From: Gammaproteobacteria bacterium
GTDB taxonomy: Bacteria; Pseudomonadota; Gammaproteobacteria; GRL18
Direction: 5' to 3'
Assembly: GCA_026196615.1 (NCBI GenBank)
Contig: JAPHSW010000185.1
Coordinates: forward strand, 1 to 36,190
Length of the DNA stretch: 36,190 bases
The notes beneath the pieces were generated by a model. That model ran no database searches. It was given only the letters and a program-made list of their open reading frames with translations, and had not been told where the DNA came from. Made by a program: the position numbers and the translations under genes. Within the stretch, counting starts at the first letter, position 1. Every line of letters starts with the position of its first letter. Of this stretch, positions 4,548 to 25,990 are shown piece after piece.

Positions 4548-5807
4548 CTATGCCATAGCAGCTTCGGCTTTTTTGTCATACCACTTCTTCACTTCTTCGT
4601 CCCAACCGTCCATACGAACATATGAACATTGGCGAGGTTCACTCACCATATTTGGATCTAACTCAAGACCAATACCTTCAAGATAATTAACCAGGCCAAT
4701 ACGTTCAATCATTTCACCAGTACGCTCATGCTCAAGTGCATTTTCAGCGAAGAAATCAATCATCTCACCAGTCAATTCAACCAGATACTCAATCTCTTCC
4801 ATGGTATCAACTTTCAAGAAAGGTGCTACTACAGTACCCATCATGTCACCAATTTTCAGAGTACGCTTACCACCAATAAGGATAGTTACACCTGTGTCAT
4901 CACCTGGAGCCAAAGCTTTGGTCATAACATTGATACAATGCATACAACGAACACATTCTTTGTTATTCACATCCAGAGTATTGTCATCATTCAGTTTAAT
5001 GGCATTGGAAGGGCAACGATTAGTCACGTTATCAATGACATAATCACGACCTTTATCGTCAACAAATGCCTTCACTTCATCTTGATCAACCTTCATATCA
5101 TCACGCCAAATACCAATAACGGCCATATCAGCACGTTCAATCGCATTGGTACAATCATTTGGACAACCAGAGACTTTAACCTTAAATTTATAAGGTAAAG
5201 CAGGTCGGTGTAAATCATCCTGGAATTCATTCACAAGGTGACGCATGATACCATGTTCATTCGTACAAGAATGTTCACAACGCGCTGCACCAACACAAGC
5301 CATTGCAGTACGAACACATGGACCCGCACCACCCAAATCAAAACCGTAAGCATTAATTTTGTCAAAGAAAGGTTGCATTTCTACAGTACTTGAACCAATA
5401 AACATGATATTACCAGTCTGACCATGGAAGGTTTGCAGACCCGAACCATGAGCTTCCCAGTCATCCGCTAGCTGGTTCAAAATATCAGCGGTATAGAAAT
5501 TACCTGCTGGTGGTTGGACTCGCACTGTGTGAAATTCTTTTGACTCAGGGAAGTGTTCAGCTACTTCAGAGAAACGCGGGATAATACCACCGCCATAACC
5601 GAAAACAGAAACAGTTCCGCCTTTCCACCAACCCATACGAGTTTCATAAGAATGCTCAAGTTGTCCCAACAGTCCATTGACCATTGAGTTGATACGTTTA
5701 TCCGGATGGTCATCTCTTAAACGCTTAATTGATGAAATAAAGCTAGGCCATTCGCCATTTTCCAGCTCATCCAGCATGGGTGTATCATAAATTGTTACCT
5801 TAGACAT
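4548..5807 (-). CDS. dsrA: Dissimilatory (reverse-type) sulfite reductase alpha subunit DsrA, solitary
   Basis: 419 residues, close to the usual DsrA length. The sirohaem-[4Fe-4S] ligand set is complete: C171 and C177 in CVGAARC, C215 and C219 in GCPNDC. An inserted ferredoxin-like domain follows with C265 and the cluster CVRCMHC (C285, C288, C291). The N terminus (TPMLDELENGEWPSFI) and WWKGGTVSVFGYGGG are typical DsrA. In sulfur oxidisers DsrAB runs in reverse, oxidising sulfane sulfur delivered by DsrC to sulfite in the cytoplasm. The start is ATG 5807, chosen for the ideal AAGGAGG 6 nt upstream; a longer frame to 5831 is open but has no such site. There is no dsrB, and no other dsr gene within the window. 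The promoter region carries an FNR-type palindrome. Either a full dsr operon lies elsewhere and this is an extra copy, or the subunits are encoded apart. Confidence 0.93.
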   Translation of the reverse strand: MSKVTIYDTPMLDELENGEWPSFISSIKRLRDDHPDKRINSMVNGLLGQLEHSYETRMGWWKGGTVSVFGYGGGIIPRFSEVAEHFPESKEFHTVRVQPPAGNFYTADILNQLADDWEAHGSGLQTFHGQTGNIMFIGSSTVEMQPFFDKINAYGFDLGGAGPCVRTAMACVGAARCEHSCTNEHGIMRHLVNEFQDDLHRPALPYKFKVKVSGCPNDCTNAIERADMAVIGIWRDDMKVDQDEVKAFVDDKGRDYVIDNVTNRCPSNAIKLNDDNTLDVNNKECVRCMHCINVMTKALAPGDDTGVTILIGGKRTLKIGDMMGTVVAPFLKVDTMEEIEYLVELTGEMIDFFAENALEHERTGEMIERIGLVNYLEGIGLELDPNMVSEPRQCSYVRMDGWDEEVKKWYDKKAEAAMA

Positions 5808-5933
5808 AATGTCCTCCTTGTCGTTATTCATTCGACTGACCAGACCTGAAATATCAAAAGGCAGGTTTTTTTTAGGTCAATACAAAAATAACCTTGTAGA
5901 AAATATGGTTATAAAACAATGATTTATGGTAAT

Positions 5934-6294: not shown

Positions 6295-6315
6295 TATAAT
6301 AAAAGTGTCATGACA
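6295..6315 (+). promoter_or_regulatory. Promoter of the sigma-54 activator gene with overlapping palindrome
   Basis: TATAAT at 6295-6300 is a perfect -10; the -35 region is weak. The predicted start, near 6307, falls inside the perfect palindrome TGTCATGACA (6306-6315). The same half-sites recur upstream of both predicted sRNA promoters at 8.0-8.4 kb, so this looks like an autorepression site. The rest of 5991-6391 is AT-rich with no gene; it contains a leader hairpin (GACAA/TTGTC at 6312-6329) with an AGGAGG in its loop, followed by a three-codon frame GTG TTA CCG TAA. Confidence 0.5.
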
Positions 6316-6391
6316 AAAAGGAGGTTGTCGTGTTACCGTAAAAAGCAGTCATATTCTAAATAAAACAGCTCAATAATTTAAAGCGGTCTCA

Positions 6392-7843
6392 ATGAAAAAC
6401 TCATTCCCAAAATATAAGCCCTCAGAGCCTCATATTCATCTAAAAGATGATGATATATCAAAACCTTCCTGTGATGACCTAATTAATATATTTAATGATC
6501 CATTTGTCATTATTGATCGACATTATCAAATTGTTGCTTCTAATAAGGCCTACCGAAGTTCTTTCCATGTCCATAACACTATAGAAGGGAAATTCTGCTA
6601 TGAAGTCTCCCATAGTTATGATTCCCCTTGCAGTCAGCATGGCGAACATTGCCCTTTAGAAACAGTAATGCGCACGGGAAAATCCACCAGCGTTCTACAT
6701 ATTCATAAGCATGGTGATGAAGAAGAGCAAGTTCAGATCAGTGCCAGCCCTATTCACAATGATAGTGGCGAAATCCATTACATGGGTGAAACCATGGTAA
6801 CCATTCCTCAAGAGGAAAAAGACCCACAATTAATCGTTGGTCGAACACCAGCAATCTTACGCTTGATCAACATCCTGCACCGTGTCGCACCAACTCAATC
6901 AACAGTGTTCATTGAAGGTGAAAGTGGAGTTGGAAAAGATTGTGTTGCCAATTACATTCATCATTACTCTAAACGCAGTAGTAAACCAATGATTGTTGTT
7001 GATTGTGGAGCAATTGGTGAAACATTAATTGAGAGTGAATTATTTGGTTATGAAAAAGGGGCTTTCACCGGCGCTTTAAAACAAAAAATTGGCTTGATTG
7101 AATCGGCTCATGGCGGCACTCTTTTTATTGATGAAATCGGTGAACTATCATTAGATTTACAAACAAAACTACTCAGAGTGCTGGAGAGTAGTACTATCCG
7201 CCGTATTGGTGGTACACATTATTTTGAAGTGGATGTCCGTATTATTGCAGCCACCAATCAGGATGTAAAAAAAATGGTAAAAGAGGGAAAGTTTCGTCAG
7301 GATCTCTATTACCGCCTGGCAACCTTTCCAGTTCATGTACCGCCATTAAGAGAACGTAAAGCGGATATACCCGCCATTGCAGAACACTTTTTACGCATAT
7401 TAGATGATGGCGCCCAACATATTCCATTACCATCCGATATTATTGAAATACTTTCATCTTATGACTTCCCAGGTAATATCAGAGAATTGCGTAATATCAT
7501 GGAGCGTGCTGTCATTTTGTCAGCAGGAGACTTCATTTCAGAAGAACATCTCACCATTGATAAAACCATTCATCATGCTGCAAGTAATGAATATGATCAC
7601 GTTGATGTTGAAGACTTTCCAACACCATTTCATTCAAAGCATCCGACTCAAACAGATGAGAATATATCAACACCTATTTATAAACCAGGCACAGGTAAAT
7701 CTCGCAAGCCCAACCTGGCCACTGTAAAACAAACTCTTGAACGCCATAATGGACACCGTTTATCTGCAGCACAGGAACTGGGTATAAGTGAACGAACGTT
7801 ATATCGTTATTTACAAAGAATCAGCAAAATGGAACAAGAATAG
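6392..7843 (+). CDS. PAS-domain sigma-54-dependent transcriptional activator
   Basis: 483 residues. Residues about 25-140 are a PAS-type sensor with three cysteines in CYEVSHSYDSPC and CPLE (C69, C80, C87), a pattern seen in PAS domains that may bind a metal, haem or redox signal. Residues 148-385 are the AAA+ domain: Walker A GESGVGKD (K182), GAFTGA loop for sigma-54 contact (223-228), Walker B GGTLFIDE (D247), and the arginine region FRQDLYYRLATFPVHVPPLRER. The C terminus holds a Fis-type helix-turn-helix (TLERHNGHRLSAAQELGISERTLYRYL). There is no receiver domain, so the signal is sensed directly. The gene is divergent from dsrA and followed by two minus-strand sRNA candidates with sigma-54 promoters, its most likely targets. 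ATG 6392 has no strong Shine-Dalgarno. Confidence 0.92.
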   Translation: MKNSFPKYKPSEPHIHLKDDDISKPSCDDLINIFNDPFVIIDRHYQIVASNKAYRSSFHVHNTIEGKFCYEVSHSYDSPCSQHGEHCPLETVMRTGKSTSVLHIHKHGDEEEQVQISASPIHNDSGEIHYMGETMVTIPQEEKDPQLIVGRTPAILRLINILHRVAPTQSTVFIEGESGVGKDCVANYIHHYSKRSSKPMIVVDCGAIGETLIESELFGYEKGAFTGALKQKIGLIESAHGGTLFIDEIGELSLDLQTKLLRVLESSTIRRIGGTHYFEVDVRIIAATNQDVKKMVKEGKFRQDLYYRLATFPVHVPPLRERKADIPAIAEHFLRILDDGAQHIPLPSDIIEILSSYDFPGNIRELRNIMERAVILSAGDFISEEHLTIDKTIHHAASNEYDHVDVEDFPTPFHSKHPTQTDENISTPIYKPGTGKSRKPNLATVKQTLERHNGHRLSAAQELGISERTLYRYLQRISKMEQE

Positions 7844-7865
7844 TAGTAACAAAAAGCGAGCATGC

Positions 7866-7911
7866 AAAAAAAAAGCCCAACCAAAAACCTTTACATAAAG
7901 GGCGGTTGAGC
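7866..7911 (-). terminator. Intrinsic terminator of predicted sRNA B
   Basis: On the minus strand GCTCAACC (7911-7904) pairs with GGTTGGGC (7882-7875), enclosing a second perfect hairpin CCTTTA-TG-TAAAGG (7901-7888), and is followed by nine consecutive U (7874-7866). The U-run shows the direction is minus, opposite to the activator gene that ends at 7843. Confidence 0.85.
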
Positions 7912-8023
7912 AATCCTGACAACATAAAAATGTTAAATCCTGAGTTAAGCCAAGCTGACTTACTACAGGTTACCGACAAAAACGAAACTAAGAGCTATAA
8001 CTCAGACACATTCCGTTCATACT
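7866..8023 (-). ncRNA. Predicted sigma-54-dependent small RNA B (about 158 nt)
   Basis: Bounded by a -24/-12 promoter (predicted start 8023) and a strong terminator (7866). An internal 8-bp pairing CTGAGTTA/TAACTCAG (arms at 8005-7998 and 7947-7940) would close a large loop that displays UUUUGUCGGU (7981-7972), a 10-mer shared with sRNA A. No ribosome site or recognisable protein is seen on this strand; the plus-strand frame 7906-8088 is antisense to it and has a TTG start. Promoter, length and terminator are visible; expression is untested. Function by base pairing is inferred from similarity of layout to Qrr- and CrcZ-type RNAs. Confidence 0.68.
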
Positions 8024-8033
8024 TTTACTATAT

Positions 8034-8051
8034 AGCATTGTCTATGCCAGT
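8034..8051 (-). promoter_or_regulatory. Sigma-54 (-24/-12) promoter of sRNA B
   Basis: On the minus strand: CTGGCATAGACAATGCTA. The GG (8048-8047) and GC (8036-8035) are separated by exactly 10 nt, and TGGCA-N6-TGCT fits the sigma-54 consensus TGGCAC-N5-TTGCW with mismatches at the last -24 base and the first -12 base. Predicted start 8023. Confidence 0.65.
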
Positions 8052-8123
8052 TATTGATAAAATCAATAACCAACTCTTTTCTATTTAAATTCTTGAATCA
8101 TTTCTATATAAAAATGTTCAAAT

Positions 8124-8177
8124 CGTCATGACATAAAAGCAGGTAAAAAATAATAATGACATGTCACTGTCATGTCA
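8124..8177 (-). promoter_or_regulatory. Probable activator sites upstream of sRNA B
   Basis: Three palindromic motifs of one type lie together: CGTCATGACA (8124-8133), TGACATGTCA (8157-8166, perfect palindrome) and TGTCATGTCA (8168-8177). They sit about 105 and 135-150 nt upstream of the predicted start 8023, the usual range for enhancers of sigma-54 promoters. They match TGTCATGACA at the activator's own promoter. Confidence 0.6.
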
Positions 8178-8250
8178 GATAGGTAAATAAAAGAATAAGA
8201 AAAGGCTATCTTTGAATTATGAAAACAGGATGAATTAAAACAGAGGGATT

Positions 8251-8287
8251 AAAAAGGTACGGTAAAACGGAGGGTCGTTTACCGTAC
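8251..8287 (-). terminator. Intrinsic terminator of predicted sRNA A
   Basis: On the minus strand GTACGGTAAA (8287-8278) pairs perfectly with TTTACCGTAC (8266-8257), and five U follow within two bases (8255-8251). Confidence 0.75.
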
Positions 8288-8374
8288 AAGAGCTTACACC
8301 GACAAAAGAGAAAGTTGTTGTTACCACCATTTCAACAAAAAGTATGATATACAACTCGCTCTATTTTGTTTGTA
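8251..8374 (-). ncRNA. Predicted sigma-54-dependent small RNA A (about 124 nt)
   Basis: Runs from a near-perfect sigma-54 promoter (predicted start 8374) to a hairpin plus U-run ending at 8251. It carries UUUUGUCGGU at 8307-8298, identical to sRNA B, in a region flanked by complementary AGAGC (8362-8358) and GCTCT (8293-8289), as in B. A second hairpin TTGTTG/CAACAA is possible near the middle. No open frame with a ribosome site is seen. The two RNAs otherwise differ, so they look like diverged paralogues or convergent members of one regulon. Confidence 0.72.
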
Positions 8375-8384
8375 CTATACATAT

Positions 8385-8401
8385 AGCAACAGCTGTGCCA
8401 A
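8385..8401 (-). promoter_or_regulatory. Sigma-54 (-24/-12) promoter of sRNA A
   Basis: On the minus strand: TTGGCACAGCTGTTGCT, a complete match to the sigma-54 consensus TTGGCAC-N5-TTGCW. GG is 8399-8398 and GC is 8387-8386. Predicted start 8374. This is the strongest sigma-54 promoter in the window and lies in non-coding sequence beside a sigma-54 activator gene. Confidence 0.85.
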
Positions 8402-8525
8402 TAAATCATTATTTAATAAAAGTCTAATACTTATTTTTATCTTATTGTTTTTAAAAGAATATTTGTTTTTTAAATATTAAATCATTTTTAGATTAAATTA
8501 GTCAGAAAGCAATATGTGCCGTATG

Positions 8526-8543
8526 TGTCATACAAAAATGACA
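8526..8543 (-). promoter_or_regulatory. Probable activator site upstream of sRNA A
   Basis: TGTCAT (8526-8531) and ATGACA (8538-8543) form an inverted repeat with a 6-bp spacer, centred about 160 nt upstream of the predicted start 8374. The half-sites are those of TGTCATGACA at 6306-6315 and of the sites upstream of sRNA B, with a wider spacer. The remaining sequence 8402-8525 and 8544-8594 is AT-rich and shows nothing further. Confidence 0.5.
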
Positions 8544-8594
8544 TGAAGTGCCATAGTTGACAATCATTGTTTAATAAATAATCAATTATGACTT

Positions 8595-12111: not shown

Positions 12112-12855
12112 TTAAGCTTTCATTAACTTCCTCACACTAGATAAATGACGGCGACTAACCTCAAATCCATCAGAGAGACCTTTTAGTTTGAGTAAAACTC
12201 GACCATCATCCTGCTTTTGTAATGCTTCTATTTTGTCTTTTCTTATTAAAGCATTTCTATGAATACGCAAAAAAATACTCTCAAACTCTTCTTCTAAAGA
12301 CTTGAGCGTATCTTCTATAATGGTTTCAGCGACTTCATTCTGTTTATTGTATTTAATTGTGATGTACTTATGATCAGCCAGAAAGCAGTATATATCTTTT
12401 ATTGGTATGAGTAATATTGTGCCCCGGATTTGGGCACTGATATGGGTTCTATAGGCAATTTCCTGATTTTGCTTACCTAATTGTTCCAGCTGAAGTTTAT
12501 TGAGCTTACTGCAATTACCCAAAGCTTTTTCCAGTCGTTCTTTACGAATGGGCTTAAGTAAATAATCTACAGCTTGAGACTCAAATGCCTGCAATGCATA
12601 CTCATCATAAGCCGTTGTAAAAATAATCGCAGGAGGATTTTCACTTGCTACCAGATGATGAGTTGCTTCCAAGCCGCTCATACCCGGCATACGAATATCC
12701 ATTAGTACAATGTCAGGCTCTTCCTGATTCACCTGCTCAATAGCTTCCAGACCATTGCCAGCTTCAATTAATTGATAGTCACAATTAATTTCTTTGATAA
12801 TATGGAGCAATCTCTCACGAGCCAGAGGCTCATCATCAGCAATAAGAATTTTCAT
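12112..12855 (-). CDS. algR: LytTR-family response regulator AlgR
   Basis: 247 residues. Receiver domain 1-120 with the acidic pair at DDEPLAR and the phospho-acceptor in DIVLMDIRMPGMSG, plus FTTAYDEYAL. Residues about 140-245 are a LytTR DNA-binding domain (IPIKDIYCFLADHKYITI, FLRIHRNALIRKDKIEAL). It starts 3 nt after the stop of the upstream kinase gene, so the two are one operon, the algZ-algR arrangement of pseudomonads. AlgR controls alginate and pili in Pseudomonas; no alginate or pilus gene is seen here, and hemC, which follows algR in Pseudomonas, is absent. Confidence 0.9.
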   Translation of the reverse strand: MKILIADDEPLARERLLHIIKEINCDYQLIEAGNGLEAIEQVNQEEPDIVLMDIRMPGMSGLEATHHLVASENPPAIIFTTAYDEYALQAFESQAVDYLLKPIRKERLEKALGNCSKLNKLQLEQLGKQNQEIAYRTHISAQIRGTILLIPIKDIYCFLADHKYITIKYNKQNEVAETIIEDTLKSLEEEFESIFLRIHRNALIRKDKIEALQKQDDGRVLLKLKGLSDGFEVSRRHLSSVRKLMKA

Positions 12856-12858
12856 ATT

Positions 12859-13947
12859 TTAAGTACTGTTTATAGTTTGGTAAGGCATTGATACAATAGC
12901 AAAATATTCATCATTTTTATCCTGACAGATTATTGAAGCCTTACCCTGAAAGTGGACTTTCAGCCTTTCCTCAATATTAGCCAATGCCATTTTATTGCCC
13001 TGACGATGAACCAGATTTTTGCTATTAGAATTCTGAACCGTAATAACTATACGATTATTTTCAAATTCTCCCTTAACCACAATACGCCCACCTTCAATTT
13101 CAGGTTCAATGCCATGAAAAATTGCATTTTCAAGTAAGGGTTGGAGTATCAGTGCTGGAATCATTGCATCATTAGGAATTAAATCAACATCCCATGTAAT
13201 AGATAAACGTTGATCCAGACGTTGCTTCTCAATATTAATATAATGTTCGCTAAGTGTGAGTTCTTTGGACCAGGGTATCATTTCATGATCTTCTCGAAAG
13301 AGCATACGAAACAACTCAGCAAGATCTTCTGTAATATGTTCAGCAACTTCAGGCCGTGTTCTCGTTAAGCTGGCAATGGTGTTCATACTATTAAAGAGAA
13401 AATGTGGTCGTATTCTAGCTTGCAGCAGTTGTAGTTTTGTACAGCTCTCAGATTGTATTTTTATTCGCCACTGATGTTGAATGTAGAAATAGTGTAATGC
13501 CAAGGCACTGATAATTCCTCCAATGAGCAAATTGTGTATCAAAAACTCCCAATGAGAGGCAAATGATAATGTCTCGGTGACCTGATATTTTTCGGCAATA
13601 TAAAAAGTCAGTTCACTGAGAAAAGTGATCATTAAAAGCAACACAAGATAACTACTCACAGCAACAAATTGATTGGAATAATGTTTGAAGACAGGACGCA
13701 ACAAGCATAGAGCACTACTACACATCAAACCATTCCATTGAATAAAAAGAGAGATTAATGCCAGATCACTCCATAATTGCTGATCCATTCTCAATGGTGC
13801 CAGTGTCAGAATAAATGCCAGCAATTCACCAATAATCACCACAGAAAAGACCATTCTTAGAGAGCAAAAATCAGGTAAAAATAATGAGTTTTGCTCCATA
13901 TTATTTTTAATCTGCTCAACTGTATGTGGTGTAGGGTCGTTTTTCAT
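12859..13947 (-). CDS. algZ: LytS/YehU-type sensor histidine kinase AlgZ (FimS)
   Basis: 362 residues. Several N-terminal membrane segments (from MVFSVVIIGELLAFILTLAPL to IHNLLIGGIISALALHYFY) precede a His_kinase domain with the RIRPHFLFNSMNTIASL motif holding the candidate phosphohistidine, and an ATPase module (ILQPLLENAIFHGIEP, then MALANIEERL). It lacks the classical DHp H-box, as do AlgZ and LytS. Its immediate partner is the AlgR gene downstream. Divergent from argH, as in Pseudomonas. Confidence 0.88.
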   Translation of the reverse strand: MKNDPTPHTVEQIKNNMEQNSLFLPDFCSLRMVFSVVIIGELLAFILTLAPLRMDQQLWSDLALISLFIQWNGLMCSSALCLLRPVFKHYSNQFVAVSSYLVLLLMITFLSELTFYIAEKYQVTETLSFASHWEFLIHNLLIGGIISALALHYFYIQHQWRIKIQSESCTKLQLLQARIRPHFLFNSMNTIASLTRTRPEVAEHITEDLAELFRMLFREDHEMIPWSKELTLSEHYINIEKQRLDQRLSITWDVDLIPNDAMIPALILQPLLENAIFHGIEPEIEGGRIVVKGEFENNRIVITVQNSNSKNLVHRQGNKMALANIEERLKVHFQGKASIICQDKNDEYFAIVSMPYQTINST

Positions 13948-22023: not shown

Positions 22024-22338
22024 TTACTTAACTTTAGTTTCCAATGTATCACTCTTACCTGTATTATCTTTCCAGGTTAATTTAACTGCATCACCAGAAG
22101 CGCCAGCAAATTTGAAAGAAAGGTATGGGTTTTTAGAGATTGCAACACCCCATTCTGCGTTCATAACAGCAGTGCCATTATGCTCACAATCAACTGCTTC
22201 AATAAAATGAGCTGGGATTACCTTACCGGTTTTCTTATCTTTACGTAATCCAGTTTCCATTTTATGACTGATCAGTGCTTTTACTGTTACTACGCCGTTT
22301 TTCGCTTTTGCGCGTACTTTAATTGAGCTTTTTGCCAT
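22024..22338 (-). CDS. soxZ: Thiosulfate carrier subunit SoxZ
   Basis: 104 residues, the usual size. SoxZ pairs with SoxY to form the periplasmic carrier on which thiosulfate sulfur is held during Sox oxidation. Landmarks: IKVRAKAKNGVVTVKALISHKMETG at the N terminus, AHFIEAVDCEHNG, and WGVAISKNPYLSFKFAGASGDAVKLTWKDN. There is no signal peptide, as expected since SoxZ is exported with SoxY by Tat. It follows soxY by about 95 nt and precedes a strong terminator. Other sox genes (soxXA, soxB) are not in this window. Confidence 0.95.
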   Translation of the reverse strand: MAKSSIKVRAKAKNGVVTVKALISHKMETGLRKDKKTGKVIPAHFIEAVDCEHNGTAVMNAEWGVAISKNPYLSFKFAGASGDAVKLTWKDNTGKSDTLETKVK

Positions 22339-22433: not shown

Positions 22434-22898
22434 TTAACCGCCACAACCACCGATAGTTACTTTAACTTCTTTTCTGGCACTGTAGAATTTGCCACCAGAT
22501 TCACAAATTGCAATCACATTAGATGTTTTACCCATTTTAATACGAGTAGCAACAAATGCTTCCGCTGCACCTTTCAGGTTAAATTTGCCAATTAGTGGTG
22601 TACCATTTTTCTCTGAAAGAATGGTAATTGATGTTACACCAGCTAAAGTTGAGCTGATAGTTACAGGGACAACTGCACCGTTTTCAGCAATATCAGGAGC
22701 TTTAATATTAATTTTATCACTTGCTTCAGTTAGTTCTGTACCGATAGAGCCTTTCATAGCACTTTGTACATCTTTTGCATCAAAAGCAGCTTTGTTCCAC
22801 GCTAGAACCTGAACAGGTACTAACAAACCACTTGTAGCGGCTAAAGCAACAGCACCAGTGGCCATTGTGTTTTTCAGGAAATGTCTACGTTGCATCAT
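22434..22898 (-). CDS. soxY: Thiosulfate carrier subunit SoxY
   Basis: 154 residues. A twin-arginine signal (MMQRRHFLKNTMATGAVALA, cleavage after VLA) directs Tat export. The C terminus is the flexible GGCGG arm, whose cysteine covalently carries the sulfur substrate. The body shows the SoxY pattern (APDIAENGAVVPVTISSTLAGV, KNGTPLIGKFNL, ARKEVKVTI). ATG 22898 has AAGGA upstream. First gene of the soxYZ pair, with its own -24/-12 promoter candidate 47 nt upstream, just downstream of a histidine kinase / NtrC-type regulator module on the same strand. Confidence 0.96.
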   Translation of the reverse strand: MMQRRHFLKNTMATGAVALAATSGLLVPVQVLAWNKAAFDAKDVQSAMKGSIGTELTEASDKINIKAPDIAENGAVVPVTISSTLAGVTSITILSEKNGTPLIGKFNLKGAAEAFVATRIKMGKTSNVIAICESGGKFYSARKEVKVTIGGCGG

Positions 22899-24634: not shown

Positions 24635-25990
24635 TCATTCACTGTATTCCTTTAATTTACGCCATAATGTTGATTTATTTACACCAAGAATAGTGGCCGT
24701 TTTTTCACGATTATCATTATTGGCTTCTAAAAGCTTAAAAATATAGCGTTTCTCTAATTCTGCTAATGTTGGCTGATCACTATCAATTTGATTACTATCA
24801 TCTTGCTGTCCTGGTGCTTGAACAGAAATAGGAATTTCATCAAGGTGCAATAATTTATTATCAGAAAGTGCAACAGCCCGTTCAATAATATTACTCAATT
24901 CACGAACATTTCCTGGCCATTGATAGTGACTTAACAATTGTGAAGAGCTTTGATCAAAGCCATCAATTTCACGATTGTATTTTTTCGCAAAACGTTTCAC
25001 CATCACATCCGTCAATAACGGGATATCTTCCAGACGATTTCGTAATGGTGGTACTTGAATATTGATAACATTCAAACGATGGTACAAATCATGTCTAAAT
25101 TTATTTTCCTGTACCATTTTATCCATGGGCTGATTAGTAGCCACGACAAAGCGTACATCAATATCAATGGGCTCAAGTCCACCCACTCGAATAATTTGTT
25201 GTTCCTGTACAACCCGTAGTAGCTTTGTCTGCATATTGTCAGAGATATTACAAATTTCATCCAGAAAGAGTGTGCCACCCGATGCAGTTTCTAATAAACC
25301 TTTCTTTTGTTTATTAGCACCAGTAAAAGCACCTTTTTCATAACCAAACAACTCACTTTGCAATAAACTGTCAGTCAACGCACCGCAATCAATCACAATA
25401 AAAGGTTTCTCTGATGACTGACTTTGAAAATGTATTGCCCTGGCAACCAGTTCTTTACCTGTACCTGATTCACCCTCTATGATCACATTACAGCGAATAT
25501 CGGCAATTTTATTAATGATGTCATATACCTTTTGCATATTTCCACCCGTTCCAATCAAGCGATACCGATCATCTTGAGCTTGCTGTGCTTTTAAGCGTTC
25601 TTTAAGACGAGAATTTTCAGCTTTAAGAATTGAAACATTCAGTGCTTTGCCAATAGTTATTTTTAATTCTTCAATATCAAATGGTTTTTTAACAAAATCC
25701 GTAGCACCCAGGCGTAATACTTCAATCGCATTATCAACATTTGAATAAGCAGTGATCACAATAACAGGGATTTGTTTGTCCATATCTCGAATTTTTTCAA
25801 GTACTTCAGCCCCCGTCAGATTGGGCATTTGCATATCGGTAATCACCAGATCAGCACTTTCTCGAGAAAAATAATCAATCGCCTCAACGGGATCGACAAA
25901 AACATGGCAGTTGTAGGTATCATCAAGATAACGCGCCATTAAACGTCCTGCTTTTGGCTCATCATCAATAATAATCAGTTCTTGCTTCAT
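24635..25990 (-). CDS. NtrC-family sigma-54 response regulator
   Basis: 451 residues. Receiver 1-120 with acidic patch IIDDE and phospho-acceptor D52 in VITDMQMPNL; lysine in FVKKPFD. AAA+ domain about 142-375 with GESGTGKE, GAFTGA and GGTLFLDE. Fis-type helix-turn-helix at the end (NDNREKTATILGVNKSTLWRKLKEYS). It activates sigma-54 promoters from upstream sites when phosphorylated. It sits between two histidine kinases (53 nt from one, 17 nt from the other), all upstream of soxYZ, where a -24/-12 promoter and inverted repeat are visible. Control of soxYZ is the simplest inference. Confidence 0.93.
   Translation of the reverse strand: MKQELIIIDDEPKAGRLMARYLDDTYNCHVFVDPVEAIDYFSRESADLVITDMQMPNLTGAEVLEKIRDMDKQIPVIVITAYSNVDNAIEVLRLGATDFVKKPFDIEELKITIGKALNVSILKAENSRLKERLKAQQAQDDRYRLIGTGGNMQKVYDIINKIADIRCNVIIEGESGTGKELVARAIHFQSQSSEKPFIVIDCGALTDSLLQSELFGYEKGAFTGANKQKKGLLETASGGTLFLDEICNISDNMQTKLLRVVQEQQIIRVGGLEPIDIDVRFVVATNQPMDKMVQENKFRHDLYHRLNVINIQVPPLRNRLEDIPLLTDVMVKRFAKKYNREIDGFDQSSSQLLSHYQWPGNVRELSNIIERAVALSDNKLLHLDEIPISVQAPGQQDDSNQIDSDQPTLAELEKRYIFKLLEANNDNREKTATILGVNKSTLWRKLKEYSE

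Follow-up and report, generated by a model that had tools for sequence, protein, structure and literature searches.

The stretch of DNA analysed here (the window, 36,190 nucleotides in its entirety) contains a gene for a sigma-54-dependent activator that is followed, on the opposite strand, by two predicted small RNA genes, B and A, each with its own promoter, upstream sites and terminator (Table 1). The initial annotation had read the protein-coding gene as a sigma-54 activator without a receiver, and this agrees with the Pfam search, in which the protein matches PAS_4 and gives no match to a receiver domain. Comparison with NCBIfam yields 29 matches, and the 25 that are shown (NifA, NorR, LuxO, GlrR and others) all lie below their curated cut-offs, the scores being for example 264 bits against a cut-off of 800 for LuxO and 233 bits against 763 for GlrR. 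Four cysteines, at positions 27, 69, 80 and 87, are invariant in the alignment of 14 orthologues (14/14); the last three lie within the PAS_4 domain and Cys 27 just N-terminal of it, and these invariant residues suggest that the signal is a redox or sulfur cue, with a metal as a further candidate. The predicted structure of the activator is poor (mean pLDDT 38) and was left out of all readings.

Table 1. Features of the activator-RNA locus, in window positions
Feature	Position	Strand	Description
TGTCATGACA palindrome	6306..6315	.	presumed autorepression site, 5 nt past the TATAAT -10-like element (6295-6300) of the activator promoter
Activator gene	6392..7843	+	PAS_4, sigma-54 AAA+ with GAFTGA, Fis-type HTH; Pfam and 14-orthologue alignment
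RNA B, predicted	7866..8026	-	about 158 nt from a start near 8023; one hairpin at the 5' end, two in the middle, then the terminator
RNA B terminator hairpin	7875..7911	-	GCUCAACC...GGUUGGGC, then U-run (T-run to 7866)
Sigma-54 promoter B, putative	8034..8049	-	TGGCATAGACAATGCT; 9/11 scored positions, 9-10/11 in 15/15 loci
RNA B second enhancer site, putative	8124..8133	.	TGTCATGACG
RNA B enhancer site, putative	8157..8177	.	TGACATGACAGTGACATGTCA
RNA A, predicted	8250..8375	-	about 125 nt; a variable hairpin at the 5' end, then the invariant linker and the terminator hairpin
RNA A terminator hairpin	8257..8287, tail to 8250	-	C-rich apical part CGACCCUCCG, then UUUUU
RNA A linker	8288..8299	-	GUGUAAGCUCUU; conserved (alignment and fold)
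Sigma-54 promoter A, putative	8385..8400	-	TGGCACAGCTGTTGCT; 11/11 scored positions, 10-11/11 in 15/15 loci
RNA A enhancer sites, putative	8526..8562	.	TGTCAACTATGGCA (8562-8549) and TGTCATTTTTGTATGACA (8543-8526), TGTCA/TGACA type

The circuit had also been described as lying next to dsrA (4548-5831, minus strand; TIGR02064, 582 bits), which is correct for the window and for most loci of the same genus, g1, where dsrA is the direct neighbour in nine of ten (the window and L031-L038), but adjacency is not intrinsic: in two g3 loci (L039 and L041) dsrA lies 2.7 kb off, the gap in L039 being occupied by what appear by eye to be a chemotaxis receptor gene and a cytochrome-like gene, and dsrA is absent from the 14 kb covered in G013. 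L040, L042 and L043, whose contigs end early, were left out of this count. The activator, RNA A and RNA B remain together while the flanking genes differ between loci, and since adjacency to dsrA varies we therefore take the unit to be the activator plus the RNAs. The dsrA gene of the window stands without dsrB alongside, and no dsrB was recognized among the scanned window proteins. Further along, on the ZnuA side, is a LytTR response regulator and histidine kinase pair (12112-13947, minus strand), 76-87% identical in L031, L033 and L034; in L032, at a contig end, the response regulator alone is present.

Related contigs found in the protein scan include a metagenome-assembled genome (MAG) titled as a symbiont of the lucinid Bathyaustriella thionipta, isolate L181_T1. 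Passages of the paper on these symbionts assign them to Thiohalomonadales, family SZUA-152 (PMC9938160); we infer the same placement for the window at that strength only, because sample L181 also yielded a Sedimenticolaceae MAG (PMC9938160). We take the organism to be an uncultured sulfur oxidiser related to vent, seep and clam-symbiont lineages.

Conservation and co-occurrence

A BLASTN search with the 706-nt stretch gives matches in 20 of 57 genomes, the window's own included, of which the weakest are short AT-rich segments or, in G003, the upstream region of a pilin-like gene. A protein scan identified 13 loci with the activator, 68-88% identical and one of them cut by a contig end; with the G013 locus added and the window included, these make up a set of 15 loci. 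All 15 have their elements in the same order, activator - RNA B - RNA A, and promoters and terminators are retained in every one. The initial annotation had named as evidence against itself the case of relatives that keep a protein frame and lose the promoters and terminators; we looked for this case, and it does not occur in the set.

The 15 sequences were aligned and compared with the window in bins of 20 nt. The RNA A core has an identity of 0.79-0.94 and the RNA B enhancers one of 0.59-0.71, and six of the eight RNA B bins lie at 0.83-0.92, with 0.38 and 0.68 in two variable parts of that RNA. Identity falls to 0.26-0.37 in the segment that separates RNA A from the B enhancers and to 0.19-0.47 within the 5' part of RNA A. 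Conservation islands are thus formed by the core of RNA A, by enhancer B and by most of RNA B. Over the RNA A enhancer identity is 0.34-0.44, and this region does not form an island because its sites shift position between species.

Covariance models of the RNA A core (R1) and of full RNA B (R2) were searched in 24 genomes of the family, with thresholds of E <= 0.01 for the RNAs and E <= 1e-120 for the activator. RNA A is found in 15 of the 24 and RNA B in the same 15, beside the orthologous activator. A full activator is present in 14, and the fifteenth carrier (G022) has a copy cut by a contig end (L043). The other nine genomes, six of which are at least 93% complete, have none of activator, A or B at the thresholds used. 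The chance of such an overlap is 7.6e-7 assuming independent genomes, which they are not, and co-occurrence alone is no proof of regulation because the cassette is inherited as a block. Across a class sample of 369 genomes, run with stricter filters, A and B are each found in two, both of the window's family and one of them its own genome. RpoN is found in 21 of the 24 family genomes and in 14 of the 15 carriers (it was not found in the carrier G023, a MAG), and Hfq in 22 of 24 and in all 15 carriers; the window's genome encodes the two proteins. Neither RNA matches Rfam at E <= 5, and the two are mutually unrelated, in that R1 found no B and R2 no A. The 16-mer of RNA A occurs in 11 stretches of viral contigs, the best model match among them having E 0.08, and RNA A has no match in plasmids.

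Promoters and structure of the two predicted RNAs

Two minus-strand -24/-12 promoters had been proposed, and both were recovered, as were the two predicted RNA lengths, about 124 and 158 nt in the initial annotation and about 125 and 158 nt here. Promoters were first located with patterns already containing TGGCA and TGC, and they were hence recounted with a pattern in which only GG and GC are fixed, over the 900 nt after the activator stop codon of each locus. In each of the 15 loci the RNA strand has exactly two sites that score 9/11 or more, each preceding one of the RNAs, and the opposite strand has no sigma-54-like site of that score, so that all 30 promoters score 9/11 or better; in the first location step, promoter B of L036, L037 and L038 had required a relaxed pattern. 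In 1.59 Mb of the relative G004 the frequency of sites with 9/11 or more is 1.2e-4 per position and strand, so that about 0.08 would be expected in 700 nt of one strand. A and B are predicted to be transcribed, and in a manner that depends on sigma-54 (RpoN).

Both terminator hairpins with their U-runs lie where they had been predicted; a simple terminator scan lists neither, presumably because of loop size and bulges, yet both are visible on folding. In RNA A, the linker is invariant in alignment A3 save for one C-to-U change in L044 and the first G in L037, and the segment UAAGCUCUU within it (8296-8288) is unpaired in the predicted fold, which makes it a candidate seed. The terminator hairpin has 98% of its cells paired and two pairs with compensatory change; there are five two-sided cells against 1.6 in shuffled alignments (2 of 500 reach this number), and the number of pairs with two-sided change, two, is not above that of the shuffles. 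The 5' part differs in sequence between copies, forms a hairpin in each of eight copies folded singly, and has no shared pairs in the consensus fold; whole RNA A folds of the eight single copies have z scores of -3.2 to -7.6. The RNA A of L037, only 50 nt long and for this reason omitted from alignment A1, begins at the conserved linker, which points to the linker and the terminator hairpin as the probable core of RNA A. Elsewhere in genome G011 are two divergent RNA A-like hairpins (L074 and L075; 45 and 39 bits), one with a GAACCCUCCG loop and a U-run. Neither has a good sigma-54 site, the best scoring 7 and 8 of 11, and they are possibly decayed copies of RNA A.

The evidence for a conserved fold is stronger in RNA B. 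Its 41 pairs, which include a 5' hairpin (GAACGGAAU..AUUUCGUUU at 8018-7980), have 95.6% of cells paired and two-sided change in ten of 41, with 28 two-sided cells where shuffled alignments give 10.1 +/- 2.7 (none of 500 reaches this number), far above slid controls; the fold z score is -2.8. In the terminator, 99% of outer-stem cells are paired, with a compensatory C-G to U-A change in three loci.

Upstream sites, probable autoregulation and a third promoter

TGTCAT/ATGACA palindromes had been noted upstream of both units, and TGTCA/TGACA sites are indeed present before each (Table 1). The pentamer TGWCA occurs 146 times in 9.0 kb (the 30 upstream regions of the 15 loci), a count that includes a tandem array in L034, against 17.6 +/- 4.0 in base-shuffled sequence. 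The region before A often has TGTCA-N4-TGRCA, and that before B often has TGACATGACAnTGACATGTCA together with TGTCATGAC; promoter A of L044 has a single TGTCA upstream. In L034 the RNA B enhancer is expanded to a tandem TGACATGACAG array of six to seven units with an 11-bp period (7864-7945 of that locus), which is one half-site pair per helical turn. The sequence TGACATGTCA occurs three times in the window's own genome, two of these without a sigma-54-like site within 1.5 kb.

A palindrome of this kind is also found in the promoter of the activator gene, where TGTCATGACA is exact in 13 of the 14 loci with a readable upstream region (L043, which is cut off, was omitted) and degenerate in L038; no sigma-54 site was found before the activator in the 13 loci scanned. 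As the palindrome falls just after the -10-like element, near the start site, the activator probably represses its own gene. On these grounds the activator very probably switches on RNA A and RNA B: a redox or sulfur cue would act on the PAS activator, a one-component bacterial enhancer-binding protein, which would bind the TGTCA/TGACA palindromes about 80-160 nt upstream of the A and B promoters and, with RpoN, drive transcription of both, and would bind TGTCATGACA near its own start site in autorepression.

A scan of 1.59 Mb (31%) of G004 revealed exactly three sites scoring at least 8/11 that have four or more TGWCA at a distance of 50-230 nt upstream. These are A, B and a third promoter, C; only C is an independent find, because A and B were already known when the cluster criterion was chosen. 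Promoter C was looked for in G004, G007, G012, G009 and G013. It is present in G004 (L219, C35:815838, minus strand) and in G007 (L243:5868, minus strand), in both with two TGTCATGACA copies 18 nt apart, and from the promoter on 131 nt are 70% identical between the two (E 1e-7). It was not seen in the covered stretches of G012, G009 and G013, which says little because these stretches are without the sulfide dehydrogenase gene. Driven in the same manner, C would give a structured, C-rich RNA, with a predicted long hairpin and a GCGUCCCCCC stretch, and with two-sided change in two of 22 pairs in this two-sequence comparison. Downstream of C in G007, in the same orientation, lie four genes, encoding a NapC/NirT cytochrome, an ankyrin-repeat protein, a c-type cytochrome and flavocytochrome c sulfide dehydrogenase, which may form one operon with C as its leader; in G004, C points at the 3' end of the convergent sulfide dehydrogenase gene.

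The window has a further sigma-54-like promoter, TGGCATGATGCATGCT at 22971-22956, before soxY-soxZ (22434-22898 and 22024-22338, minus strand). The sequence TTGCAATTTGCA and a further TGCAA site lie about 155-235 nt upstream of soxY in all five genomes compared (the window, L244, L222, L245 and L251), and these TGCAA-type sites are distinct from the TGTCA sites of A and B. This promoter is probably activated by the NtrC-type response regulator encoded at 24635-25990, and the arrangement resembles that of Thiohalomonadales symbionts, in which, as described in passages of PMC11237559, soxYZ lies beside sigma-54 regulator and histidine-kinase genes.

Probable mode of action, alternative readings and known systems

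RNA A and RNA B most likely act by Hfq-assisted base-pairing with mRNAs, RNA A presumably through the linker segment UAAGCUCUU and the C-rich, anti-Shine-Dalgarno-like part of its hairpin. Searches by linker complement, 5' UTR, duplex and motif found no conserved mRNA or protein target for either RNA. The exact linker complement AAGAGCTTAC is hardly enriched: it has eight matches in the window's genome, RNA A being one, where the reversed control has 14, and 110 (14 of them RNA A) against 84 over the 24 genomes. The 64 carrier sites outside RNA A include four clusters of shared context, one of three sites and three of two (one of the latter being a pair within a single genome), and the only shared 5' UTR site, that of G012 and G004, precedes a gene identified by eye as STAS/sugar-transferase. 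Pairing of A or B with the activator gene or with sulfur genes nearby is unconvincing, the best z score among 24 tests being -2.7. The activator 5' UTR of the window (6306-6345, GGAGGTTGTCGTGTTACCGTAA) has a striking complementarity to loop and stem of RNA A, at -36 kcal/mol, a value taken without a shuffled control; this segment falls mostly outside the stretch given to the shuffled pairing test. The complementarity is missing in 13 other loci, and the pairing is a possible species-specific feedback. Duplexes between A and B were also considered and rejected, none differing from shuffles by more than 2 sd (the best, in L036, has -51.0 against -41.9 +/- 4.9).

It is improbable, in our judgement, that A and B are sigma-54-driven under another enhancer-binding protein with the neighbouring activator merely linked to them. 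Such a protein is encoded in the window (24635-25990), and binding of the activator to the sites is a prediction, but the presence of all three elements in 15 genomes and of none in nine argues against mere linkage of the activator, the activator's own promoter bears the same palindrome, and the soxYZ promoter of the window has TTGCA sites and no TGWCA upstream, a contrast tempered by one to three scattered TGWCA upstream of soxYZ in two of four relatives. A known parallel is GlmY of Enterobacteriaceae with QseE/QseG/QseF, which passages of PMC6075780 and PMC8745638 describe as a sigma-54-dependent small RNA whose gene lies beside the operon of its activator QseF, with conserved synteny and three upstream sites of TGT/ACA type, the QseF consensus being TGTN12ACA or TGTCN10GACA. 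The layout here is alike, with a sigma-54 small RNA beside an activator, kept synteny and several TGT/ACA sites upstream, and TGTCATTTTTGTATGACA of the window fits TGTCN10GACA. That A and B are decoys of the GlmY/GlmZ type acting on RapZ, under a relative of QseF/GlrR, is nonetheless scarcely credible: neither RNA matches these families in Rfam (E <= 5), the TGTCN10GACA spacing is found in only three of 15 A regions, spacings being mostly N4, the commonest, or N0, there are two (with C, three) unrelated RNAs here, and the activator has a PAS domain in place of a receiver and a GlrR score far below the cut-off, QseF being a phosphorylated response regulator with a kinase whereas the window activator is a one-component PAS protein.

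We consider it very unlikely that RNA B or A is the mRNA of a small protein such as MNGMCLSYSS, read from an ATG near the RNA B 5' end. Frames were compared from ATG starts (GTG and TTG frames being counted only), and 13 of the 15 RNA B copies contain one that starts MNGMCLS; most contain a second, starting MLSG or MLSE, and eight of 15 RNA A copies have some ATG frame of at least eight codons. However, the MNGMCLS frame lacks its ATG in two of 15 copies and runs for 10 to 43 codons to unrelated ends, the second frame lacks its ATG in L036 and L038 and has differing ends, and seven of 15 RNA A copies are without such a frame, so that no ATG frame is conserved throughout in either RNA. Moreover, differences in the RNA B hairpin loop alter amino acids while the GAGU/GCUC or ACUC pairing persists, and the MNGMCLS ATG of the window is only 3-4 nt from the predicted start, so that there is no room for a Shine-Dalgarno sequence. 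Titration of a protein, either CsrA/RsmA as by RsmZ or Hfq as by CrcZ, is a somewhat less remote prospect, and still an unlikely one. Sponges of the CsrB/RsmZ kind have several A(N)GGA motifs in loops; 14 of 15 RNA B copies contain two to four such motifs, but that of L038 has none, the most constant one (ACGGAA) sits in the 5' stem, and none is present in any of the 15 RNA A copies, so neither RNA has the arrangement of such a sponge. Passages of PMC4063720 describe CrcZ as an RpoN-dependent RNA whose A-rich motifs titrate Hfq. The A-rich CA motif occurs at most once in RNA A and not at all in RNA B, which is not the repeated pattern through which CrcZ works.

Several features expected of a sigma-54-dependent small RNA in general are present here in putative form, namely -24/-12 promoters, upstream sites with an enhancer-binding protein, a conserved non-coding structure and a terminator of its own, and the kind is already known from GlmY-QseF, CrcZ-CbrB and Qrr-LuxO. 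The Qrr RNAs of Vibrio are several sigma-54-dependent paralogues under LuxO, which has a receiver, and act with Hfq. The present system likewise has several predicted sigma-54 RNAs under one activator and an encoded Hfq, but the activator is without a receiver and far below the LuxO cut-off, A and B are not detectably alike, and neither matches the Qrr family in Rfam. RNA A also bears some likeness to small RNAs with C-rich loops, such as RsaE, whose hairpin loop carries a CCCUCC-type anti-Shine-Dalgarno motif; the likeness is one of description, to RNAs of another phylum with other promoters. CrcZ of Pseudomonas is an RpoN-dependent RNA under the NtrC-family activator CbrB, as set out in passages of PMC4063720, and with it the system shares an NtrC-family activator and RNAs whose RpoN dependence is here predicted; there is no match to CrcZ/CrcY in Rfam.

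The reading we prefer, and hold to be very likely, is that a one-component PAS/sigma-54 activator drives two unrelated regulatory RNAs and probably represses itself, with base-pairing to mRNAs as the likeliest mode of action. A new activator-small RNA circuit was the principal proposal of the initial annotation, and the co-occurrence, the palindrome in the activator promoter and the third promoter all lend it support. What appears to be new is the combination of unrelated RNAs, a one-component PAS activator and an apparently small, RNA-rich regulon. No description of the system was found in the titles and abstracts returned by a literature search, in which passages of papers such as PMC9174799 were included, and a full-text search on post-transcriptional control in chemosynthetic sulfur oxidisers yielded one genome paper. 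To the well-studied enteric, Vibrio and Pseudomonas systems the locus thus adds two predicted RNA families and, with C, a candidate for a third; their dedicated activator does not belong to a two-component system, and the organisms are uncultured marine sulfur oxidisers. It offers precise testable coordinates (start sites, operators and a candidate seed) for post-transcriptional control in chemosynthetic members of this group. More tentatively, and with rather more doubt than belief, we raise the possibility of a nearly RNA-only sigma-54 regulon, in which a cysteine-bearing PAS activator sensing redox or sulfur state would have three unrelated structured RNAs as its main outputs, A and B standing alone and C apparently standing alone in one species and serving as a leader in another, and would in this way tune sulfur oxidation. 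If this is true, lithotrophic sulfur oxidation in this family would be tuned post-transcriptionally.
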